Positions 37,236 to 40,304 of a stretch of DNA of 52,048 nucleotides are shown here, in pieces. Under the pieces are notes generated by a model. The model searched no databases and was not told where the DNA came from. It saw nothing but the letters and a program-made list of their open reading frames with translations. Numbering within the stretch: the first letter of the stretch is position 1; each line of letters opens with the position of its first letter. Position numbers and translations under genes: made by a program. The stretch comes from an uncultured Lachnospiraceae bacterium (GTDB taxonomy: Bacteria; Bacillota; Clostridia; Lachnospirales; Lachnospiraceae): positions 1-52,048 of the forward strand of contig CAJOLA010000003.1 in NCBI GenBank assembly GCA_905235275.1. The letters run 5' to 3'.

Positions 37236-37264
37236 ATTTTACACTTAATTTTAGAAATTATCAA
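37236..37264 (-). promoter_or_regulatory. Promoter for the lrp-leuA run
   Basis: TTGATA (37259-37264) and TAAAAT (37236-37241) with a 17-base spacer on the minus strand. The -35 lies inside the last codons of the helicase gene. Confidence 0.7.
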
Positions 37265-39038
37265 GACGTTTTTTAATTTCCAACTCTTTAATAAATGACG
37301 ATTGCATTGCTTTTTTGTTAAGAAATGTTTCATGCCAGCTAAGCGTCAGAAACTTACGCGCTCTGGTCATTGCAACATACATGATTCGGCGCTCTTCTTC
37401 CTTTCCGTTCTCGGCAATTGCTCTTGCATACGGAATTACGCCTTCATTTACAAAAGGCACGAAAACCCTGTCAAACTCAAGCCCCTTGGACGAATGAATG
37501 GTGGACAGTATCACGGCGTTTTTGACATCTCTTTTTTCTCTGATTACCTCGTAATTTTCCTCAAGCTCAAATACACTCTCAATTGTGCTAAGACCGTGTA
37601 TGACTCCCCTGAATTCATCAAGTTTTCCTCTGTCGTACTCGGAAAGCCCTCTTTCAACTCCTATCACATTCCTTATGAATTCCAAAGCTGTCTCCGGCGA
37701 ATATTTTTTAAGTCTGATAATGTGGCGCTCCAGCTGTCTTATGCGTGCATCCGTGCACACTTCTTTAAGCAGACTCCAGCTTAAGTTTCCTGCCGTTGCA
37801 ATTCCCTCATTTACCTGAATGCCGGCGGATCTTAATATAACCACAAAATCCGAGGCTTCGGCTCTTCCTACTATCGCCTTAAAAAAGGACATAATCATTC
37901 GTACCTTCGGATGCTCAAATATATTCGTCAAATTATCCTTTAAACAAAATTTTATGTTTTCCTTTGTAAGCCTTGTCGCAACCTTCTCAAGTATGTTGCA
38001 GGTCCTTGCAAGCACCGCCACGGAATCCCCGCTCATCCGGGCTTTTCTTATCTCGGAAACAAGCTGATTCATCTCTTCAATCTCGTTATATGCAGAAATA
38101 ATTTTCAGTCCGTCACAATCACAGGCCGGTGACATTGAAACCATATTTTTGTTGTAGCGTTTTTTGTTTTTGCTTATAAGATTATTCGCACGCCTGACTA
38201 TGCTGTTTGTACTCCTGTAATTCTCGGGCAGGCTGTAAATTCTGCAATCGTCAAAATAGTCCTTAAAATTAATCATTATCTCGGGGCATGCACCCCTGAA
38301 TCCGTAAATCGACTGATCTTCATCTCCCACCGCATAAAAATTATCATTTTTGCATAATTTCTTAAGAAACTTAAATTGATCAACTCCTGTATCCTGAAAT
38401 TCATCAACCAGAACAAATTCGAATTTACCGGCAATAACTTCACTGCCGCCCGGCTCGGTCAAAAGTCTGTCCGACATTTTTGCCATATCATCAAAATCAA
38501 AATATCCGAACTTCTCCTTAAAGCTTTGCAGCGCCGTCTGCGCAAACTTAAAAAACTCCCGGTCACAATACTGCAGCCTGTAATCATCAAAGCTTAAGCC
38601 CGACCTCTCAAATGCCGCAGACTCCTTTAAAAATAAATTGATAAGACCGGGTATCCTGACAAATCCCCGATTGCGTTCCTGATATTTAATAATTGTCTTT
38701 TTTAGAAAGTCGATTTTTTCTTTTTCGGGTAATAAACGATAATTGGAATTAAGATTTCCTGAATTAAGAATCGAATAACATACTGAATGAATCGTAGAAA
38801 AAGTAACAGATGTATTATGCTCTGAAGTCGCTTTCAGATAGCGCTCCTTCATTTCCGCGGCGGCCGCCTTAGCGAAGGTAACGACAAGTATCCTTTCGGG
38901 ATCAACACTTCTTTTTTCTGTCAGATACTTTATCCTCTCAATGATTACCGTGGTCTTTCCGCTGCCGGGTCCCGCAAGGACAAGCGCCGGTCCCGTGTAA
39001 TGAGTTACGGCCTCCTGTTGATATTTTGAAAGTAAAAT
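37251..39038 (-). CDS. UvrD/PcrA-like superfamily 1 DNA helicase with an apparent ATT start
   Basis: An ATP-driven 3'-5' DNA helicase for repair or recombination, 595 residues, shorter than PcrA (about 740). The in-frame translation upstream of the first ATG (38852) gives the essential Q-motif KYQQEAVTH and Walker A LAGPGSGKTT, so the gene must start earlier. Walker B is in LVDEFQDTG. Later motifs are VGDEDQSIYGFRGA, STIHSSKGLEFD and AMTRARKFLTL. No ATG, GTG or TTG exists between the in-frame stop (39078-39080) and Walker A. The best start is ATT at 39036-39038, seven bases after AAGGGGGG, giving an N-terminus like family members. A sequence error or a weakly expressed gene is the alternative. 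Confidence 0.82.
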   Translation of the reverse strand: MLLSKYQQEAVTHYTGPALVLAGPGSGKTTVIIERIKYLTEKRSVDPERILVVTFAKAAAAEMKERYLKATSEHNTSVTFSTIHSVCYSILNSGNLNSNYRLLPEKEKIDFLKKTIIKYQERNRGFVRIPGLINLFLKESAAFERSGLSFDDYRLQYCDREFFKFAQTALQSFKEKFGYFDFDDMAKMSDRLLTEPGGSEVIAGKFEFVLVDEFQDTGVDQFKFLKKLCKNDNFYAVGDEDQSIYGFRGACPEIMINFKDYFDDCRIYSLPENYRSTNSIVRRANNLISKNKKRYNKNMVSMSPACDCDGLKIISAYNEIEEMNQLVSEIRKARMSGDSVAVLARTCNILEKVATRLTKENIKFCLKDNLTNIFEHPKVRMIMSFFKAIVGRAEASDFVVILRSAGIQVNEGIATAGNLSWSLLKEVCTDARIRQLERHIIRLKKYSPETALEFIRNVIGVERGLSEYDRGKLDEFRGVIHGLSTIESVFELEENYEVIREKRDVKNAVILSTIHSSKGLEFDRVFVPFVNEGVIPYARAIAENGKEEERRIMYVAMTRARKFLTLSWHETFLNKKAMQSSFIKELEIKKRLDNF

Positions 39039-39071
39039 AAAAAATCCCCCCTTAAAATCAATATGGAGGGA
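39039..39071 (-). terminator. Terminator-like hairpin after thiI that also holds the helicase ribosome binding site
   Basis: TCCCTCC (39065-39071) pairs with GGGGGGA (39045-39051) across a 13-base loop, followed on the minus strand by six T residues. It is well placed as the thiI terminator. The G-run is also the only candidate ribosome binding site for the helicase, so folding would hide it. Confidence 0.65.
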
Positions 39072-39100
39072 ATTATACTATCTGTTTCTTAAAAATACAA
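39072..39100 (-). promoter_or_regulatory. Possible helicase promoter
   Basis: TATAAT (39072-39077) with TTGTAT (39095-39100) 17 bases upstream on the minus strand, in the thiI-helicase gap. The -35 is a poor match (three of six). Confidence 0.4.
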
Positions 39101-39125
39101 TAAGTATTTTCATTAAATTTTAAAT

Positions 39126-40304
39126 TTATTCACACACGATAACCTCGGCCGTCTCTATAGCCTCATTTATCATGTCCTCGATATTATCCGGAAGCTTCTT
39201 CTCATCGCGCTCTATTATATCAAGCTTGGGCTTTGTGACCGGGTGCTTTGCAACAAATATCGTGCAGCAGTCCTCAAACGGCTGAATCGATGTCTCATAC
39301 GTTCCGATCCTTTGAGCGACGTCTATTATTTCCTGCTTGTCAAATCCGATAAGCGGACGATATACCGGCATCTCACATACGGCATTTGTGCAATAGAGCC
39401 CGTGCATCGTCTGACTTGCAACCTGCCCGATGCTCTCGCCCGTCACAAGCCCCATGCAGCCGTTCTTTTTGGCGATGGCTTCAGCGATTCGCATCATTAT
39501 GCGTCGCATGATAATCGTAAGCTCATCGTGAGGACAGGACTTATAAATCTCAAGCTGGATTGCCGTAAAATCAATCACGTTTAACGATATCGGTCCCGCA
39601 TACTCCGAAACTGTTTTTGCAAGATCGACAACCTTTTGCTTCGCACGCTCGCTCGTATACGGCGGAGCATGAAAATATGTCGCATGAATTCTTACACCGC
39701 GTTTTGAAATCATATATCCGGCAACAGGTGAATCGATTCCGCCCGACAGCAAAAGCATGGCACTTCCCGAAACGCCTGAAGGCATGCCGCCCGGTCCCGG
39801 TATCTCCTTTGAATAAATATTAATCTGCTTTCTTATCTCTATTGATATAAGAACATCCGGATTATGAACGTCTACTTTAAGACCCGGAAATGCTTCAAGA
39901 AGGACATGTCCCATCTCCCCGTTTATCTCCATTGAATTAAGCGGGAAATTCTTTCTTGCACGTCTGGCATCCACCTTGAACGTAAAATTCTTCTCCTTGT
40001 AGGCAGCGTCAATATATTCGACAAGCTTATTTGAAAGGTCCTCTACACCGTTGTCCTCAATCTGTATAACTGGGCATATCCAAACTATCCCGAATACCTT
40101 TTGAAGAATCCCGACCACCTCATCATAGTCAAACTCTTCTCTTGCCGTTGCATATATTCGACCGTTTTCTTTTGTCACGACAAAATCACCGTCTGTTTTC
40201 TTTAATGCTCTCGCAACACTGCTTACCAAAGCATCCTCGAAAAGATGGCGGTTATTTCCCTTTAAACCTATTTCTCCGTATTTTATTAAAAAAGCTTTGT
40301 ACAT
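39126..40304 (-). CDS. thiI: tRNA 4-thiouridine sulfurtransferase ThiI
   Basis: ThiI activates uridine 8 of tRNA with ATP and inserts sulfur; in many bacteria it also serves thiamine synthesis. The 392-residue protein has an N-terminal ferredoxin-like plus THUMP region (about 1-165) and a PP-loop ATPase domain with LLLSGGIDSPVAGY (about 184-197). The C-terminal rhodanese domain of E. coli ThiI is absent, as is usual in Firmicutes. The cysteine desulfurase gene 15 bases upstream fits as the direct sulfur donor, as in Bacillus nifZ-thiI. A terminator-like hairpin follows. Confidence 0.95.
   Translation of the reverse strand: MYKAFLIKYGEIGLKGNNRHLFEDALVSSVARALKKTDGDFVVTKENGRIYATAREEFDYDEVVGILQKVFGIVWICPVIQIEDNGVEDLSNKLVEYIDAAYKEKNFTFKVDARRARKNFPLNSMEINGEMGHVLLEAFPGLKVDVHNPDVLISIEIRKQINIYSKEIPGPGGMPSGVSGSAMLLLSGGIDSPVAGYMISKRGVRIHATYFHAPPYTSERAKQKVVDLAKTVSEYAGPISLNVIDFTAIQLEIYKSCPHDELTIIMRRIMMRIAEAIAKKNGCMGLVTGESIGQVASQTMHGLYCTNAVCEMPVYRPLIGFDKQEIIDVAQRIGTYETSIQPFEDCCTIFVAKHPVTKPKLDIIERDEKKLPDNIEDMINEAIETAEVIVCE

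Follow-up and report, generated by a model that had tools for sequence, protein, structure and literature searches.

The gene for a UvrD/Rep-like helicase in the stretch of DNA analysed here, 52,048 nucleotides of an uncultured Lachnospiraceae bacterium (hereafter the window; its genome is designated G000), almost certainly starts at an ATT codon, judging from sequence comparison, since the sister species G008 keeps ATT at the same codon and 116 other relatives have ATG, TTG or GTG. Taken together, we regard it as highly probable that initiation at AUU is driven by a strong Shine-Dalgarno (SD) sequence; an ancestral AUG was likely lost once, output is probably low and would be restrained by IF3, and in the window a hairpin and a possible promoter are overlaid on this arrangement. 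The features of the region, all on the minus strand, are as follows.

37251 to 39038, minus strand: coding sequence of the UvrD/Rep-like SF1A helicase, 595 amino acids as read from ATT, assigned from the open frame, Pfam and structure matches and motifs
39036 to 39038, minus strand: putative ATT start codon; no other start candidate has a strong SD, G008 carries ATT at the matching codon, and 116 of 118 scored orthologs have canonical starts
39046 to 39053, minus strand: Shine-Dalgarno sequence AAGGGGGG, with a 7-nt spacer to ATT and an anti-SD duplex of -11.7 kcal/mol
39039 to 39071, minus strand: intrinsic-terminator-like hairpin, arms at 39071-39065 and 39051-39045, six T at 39044-39039; its 3′ arm is also the SD
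39072 to 39100, minus strand: possible promoter, TTGTAT-N17-TATAAT, by consensus reading (-10 element perfect, -35 element 3/6)
39078 to 39113, minus strand: leader ORF of 11 codons, MKILIVFLRNR*, in frame with the helicase and ending at TAG just before TATAAT
39126 to 40304, minus strand: thiI, the gene upstream of the helicase (PF02568, 1.7e-67), 87% identical to its counterpart directly upstream of the helicase in G008

The helicase gene and its start region

The protein matches PF00580 (2e-56) and UvrD_C (3.7e-40) in Pfam, as well as the structure of PcrA (1pjr; 3.2e-54), and the motif residues GPGSGKT, DEFQDT, GDEDQSIYGFRGA, TIHSSKGLEFD and YVAMTRA are intact; the presence of the UvrD N- and C-terminal domains and of motifs I, II, III, V and VI places it in the UvrD/Rep group of SF1A helicases. 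The NCBIfam equivalog cut-offs were not reached, either for Rep (276 bits against 951) or for PcrA (271 against 911), and the score is also far under the UvrD cut-off, so that the protein appears to belong to a shorter branch of its own within the family.

The helicase frame is closed upstream by a TAG at 39080-39078 (minus strand), after which it reads YNSLHIDFKGGFF-ILLSKYQQEAVTHYTGPALVLAGPGSGKTT and remains open down to 37251. The original prediction, made from the letters of the window, held that no ATG, GTG or TTG precedes the ATG at 38852, and reading through the frame from the TAG bore this out; the ATG at 38852, the first canonical start, lies 3′ of Walker A (GPGSGKT). The codon proposed in its place, the ATT at 39036-39038, seven nucleotides after AAGGGGGG (spacer ATTTTTT), has likewise stood up to comparison with relatives, as detailed below. 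An ATG further upstream in the same frame (39113-39111) opens the leader ORF, which is closed by the TAG; no SD was seen for this ORF, and the corresponding gap in G008 is too short to hold one like it. Gene finders would truncate the window helicase behind Walker A, or miscall the N-terminus in G008.

The probable start codon in the sister species

Among ten other species of the genus that were compared, G008, which was assembled separately, is the closest for the helicase protein (50% identity), and the gene order nifS-thiI-helicase-lrp-leuA is common to both genomes. At the matching codon the G008 gene reads AAAGGAGG-AGATCACT-ATT-TTA-CTA, with a spacer of 8 nt between SD and ATT (L017:1501 / L058:9475). 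The whole junction with the preceding gene, thiI-TAA-AAAAGGAGGAGATCACT-ATT-TTA-CTA-ACT, separates ATT from the thiI stop by just 17 nt, and the G008 helicase frame lacks a canonical start before codon 12. Thus, the non-canonical codon and its SD are conserved in a related species, and in a single one. Codon 12 of the G008 frame is an ATG (L058:9508), probably the choice of a gene finder; a start there would keep Walker A and drop the glutamine of the Q-motif.

Over the first 62 codons the two proteins are 65% identical (40/62), as against 50% overall; nucleotide matches at codon positions 1, 2 and 3 amount to 77, 82 and 53%, and 13 of the 27 shared four-fold sites are identical. By this measure the N-terminal 62 codons are under selection at the protein level. 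Upstream of ATT no similarity was found between the two species (YNSLHIDFKGGFF in the window, KIKKEEIT in G008). Conservation of the N-terminal codons as protein, together with the lack of anything shared upstream, suggests that translation begins at, or very near, ATT. The helicase evolves fast amid conserved neighbours: its 50% identity between the two genomes compares with 87% for thiI, 95% for lrp and 90% for leuA.

Start codons of other orthologs and the origin of ATT

Orthologs were scored through an anchor formed by the Q-motif and Walker A, which made 118 of them readable. The start at or next to the ATT codon is ATG in 100, TTG in 13 and GTG in three, and the two that have none of these are those of G000 and G008. 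Within the genus, six species have ATG exactly at the ATT codon, one has TTG there, another member has GTG one codon downstream of the equivalent position, and G005 yielded only a paralog-like match. Nine loci were missed by the anchor; a looser match made six of the nine readable, all six with canonical codons upstream of Walker A. In a tree of the helicases, G000 and G008 are sisters (100/100 support), on branches of 0.88 and 0.6 changes per column, and group with relatives that start with ATG and GTG. Since the G000 and G008 genes form a pair surrounded by relatives that start canonically, a single change from AUG to AUU in their common ancestor is the simplest reading and a likely one. Such changes are rare: a reconstruction of start-codon evolution counted one AUG-to-AUU change per 61,358 ancestral AUG starts (PMC5622118).

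Near-cognate start candidates elsewhere in the two genomes

About 430 kb of G000, with 362 ORFs of at least 120 amino acids, was scanned for near-cognate codons preceded by a strong SD where the canonical alternatives have only weak ones. Seven ORFs were flagged. The two with the strongest SDs were infC, at ATT (-12.7 kcal/mol), and the helicase, at ATT (-11.7 kcal/mol); for the remaining sites the SD was weaker (-7.8 to -9.8 kcal/mol). The AUU start of infC, the gene for IF3, is established in E. coli and many other bacteria, and its recovery is a good internal control of the scan. In G000 infC reads GGGGAGG-TAAATACC-ATT (L083:8710-8712, contig 16); there and in relatives (L064, L062, L061) the ATT follows GGGAGG or GGGGAGG. 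The same scan in G008 did not flag the helicase, probably owing to SD-like bases before the ATG at codon 12. In a simpler scan, run on 310 ORFs of G008, however, two ATT sites stood out by a strong SD at a suitable distance, those of the helicase and infC. The other sites flagged in the two genomes, with their weaker SDs (-7.5 to -9.5 kcal/mol in G008), were read as chance and set aside.

The hairpin and a possible promoter

As originally predicted, the G-run of the SD can pair with an upstream TCCCTCC: in the RNA, UCCCUCC (39071-39065) would pair with GGGGGGA (39051-39045) in a stem of five GC, one AU and one GU pair (-11.5 kcal/mol), followed by six T (39044-39039). When the leader was dinucleotide-shuffled with the G-run fixed, a stem as good or better arose in 12 of 5000 shuffles; for the hairpin element as a whole the z-score was only -0.9. 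A terminator pattern (at least five GC pairs and at least 6 bp, a loop of 3-15 nt, and a T-run) searched on both strands of about 430 kb of sampled G000 stretches was found at 53 sites, as against two in shuffled sequence, and given this enrichment the hairpin probably serves thiI as a genuine intrinsic terminator. A more stringent scan for promoters and terminators, limited to loops of at most 8 nt and -35 elements of at least 4/6, returned nothing at the helicase start.

The TATAAT at 39077-39072 lies just before the 5′ arm of the hairpin, and its predicted +1, at about 39064, is past that arm; it is possible, from the sequence, that the helicase has a separate promoter. The predicted probability that the SD is unpaired is 0.16 in a read-through RNA and 0.30 in an RNA starting at 39064, a modest difference.

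In G008 no hairpin follows thiI. Of the two features whose conservation in close relatives was proposed as a check of the prediction, the ATT was thus found in G008 and the hairpin was not; the terminator and the ATT are separate matters, and only the ATT is common to both species. The idea that read-through of the thiI terminator sets helicase output fared similarly: the terminator itself is plausible, whereas its absence from G008 makes such control at most a lineage-specific addition.

Alternative explanations

An error in the consensus or the assembly, the true codon being ATG or an indel shifting the frame, might be suspected because the window assembly is fragmented (93 contigs, 86.5% complete) and T- and G-runs flank the ATT codon. 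However, the independent assembly of G008 (about ten contigs, 95% complete) shows ATT there as well, in a gene only 50% identical; that one and the same error should have arisen twice is very unlikely, a base error masking the ATG or TTG of relatives is effectively excluded, and we consider an artefact of this kind extremely improbable. A decaying gene, in which the start was lost by mutation and the N-terminus is untranslated or expressed through leakage only, would be in keeping with the fast evolution of the helicase and with in-frame stops reported in several more distant relatives, where the gene may be dispensable. Against this, the frame is open over 595 codons with its motif residues intact, the first 62 codons are conserved as protein, and SD and ATT persist in two species that lie far apart in the helicase tree (0.88 and 0.6 changes per column); a pseudogene is effectively excluded, and decay is in our view very unlikely. 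In the match tables, in-frame stops in the helicase occur in the family genomes G251, G169, G147, G282, G176, G138, G020 and others, and repeated loss is possible.

Translation might also start elsewhere, at the ATG of codon 12 in G008, which retains Walker A, or, in the window, at the leader ORF MKILIVFLRNR, which is in frame with the helicase and would be joined to it by read-through of the TAG or by ribosome sliding. Yet codon 12 of the window gene is ACT, a start at codon 12 drops the Q-motif, and both alternatives ignore the strong SD that in each species precedes ATT by 7-8 nt. Read-through of the TAG was rejected, as the leader ORF lacks an evident SD and would not fit into the G008 gap. 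We therefore judge a start elsewhere very unlikely. A tentative possibility, compatible with an AUU start, is that structural control dominates, the SD-covering hairpin and read-through of the thiI terminator together setting helicase output. The stability of the hairpin, the enrichment of its type and the predicted masking of the SD in read-through RNA speak for it; the absence of the hairpin in G008, with its 17-nt gap, the small predicted difference in SD exposure and the possible promoter, which would bypass the hairpin, speak against it. The preferred reading, initiation at ATT, could itself be limited by the facts that only two species carry ATT and that the G008 start is arguable in view of its codon-12 ATG, and, given how fast the helicase evolves, a weakly expressed gene under relaxed constraint would present a similar picture.

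Comparison with known systems and proposed mechanism

To our knowledge, very few bacterial genes with an AUU start have experimental support. The helicase resembles infC, including that of G000, in its AUU after a strong SD. In contrast to the helicase, infC is IF3's own gene and autoregulates, whereas the helicase would be only a passive reporter of the IF3 level and, unlike infC, appears to have changed recently from AUG. According to the citation of Binns and Masters 2002 in PMC13009471, pcnB of E. coli has an AUU start that was tested experimentally; as cited there, it is similar in being a single gene for a nucleic-acid enzyme kept low by AUU, and different in encoding another protein, in another phylum and gene neighbourhood, and in having been tested, where the helicase is known from sequence. 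In S. aureus, the AUU start of cvfC1 and the AUA start of ccpN were shown by ribosome profiling and reporters, the cvfC1 AUU, with an extended SD, having in RPMI, a poor medium, an output of about 10% of that from AUG (PMC13009471). These are also conserved non-canonical starts with an extended SD in a Gram-positive bacterium, but they belong to small or regulatory proteins and were demonstrated experimentally (PMC13009471). The GTC start of Streptomyces sigR is another conserved non-canonical start outside infC; there the codon differs and repression by IF3 was shown, whereas for the helicase it is inferred (PMC5472188). Our literature search found no ATT starts in Lachnospiraceae and, among the papers listed, no bacterial UvrD with a non-AUG start. 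On the comparative evidence, the helicase adds a new case to the few conserved genes that start at AUU; as an enzyme gene standing beside the infC control of the same genome, it indicates that comparative analysis is able to find starts of this kind.

In the mechanism that we propose, the strong SD would set the 30S subunit on the AUU at 39038-39036, which the initiator tRNA would decode as formyl-Met. Initiation would be far slower than at an AUG, giving low helicase output, and IF3, as for infC and pcnB, would hold it down, so that output would rise when IF3 activity falls. Since IF3 discriminates against AUU in these precedents, expression of the helicase is probably low-level, infC-like and IF3-sensitive. 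In the window species only, where the SD doubles as the 3′ arm of the thiI terminator-like hairpin, RNAs reading through from thiI would be subject to termination and to masking alike; the putative TATAAT promoter before the 5′ arm may give a hairpin-free message, and may be a simpler route to one than control by thiI read-through. A further idea, speculative and in our estimation improbable, is that the helicase level is tied to the fidelity of translation initiation, the AUU answering to IF3 while the SD-masking terminator and the abutting promoter allow only promoter-born messages to be translated; if true, repair or replication capacity would track the state of the ribosome pool.

IF3 (PF00707) is encoded in both G000 and G008, itself with an SD followed by ATT. 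As a minor observation, contig 88 of G003 (L069), a member of the genus, carries a second IF3-like gene, at the front of which stands TTAGGAGGTGTGAC-ATT; it is possibly a second IF3 with a near-cognate start.
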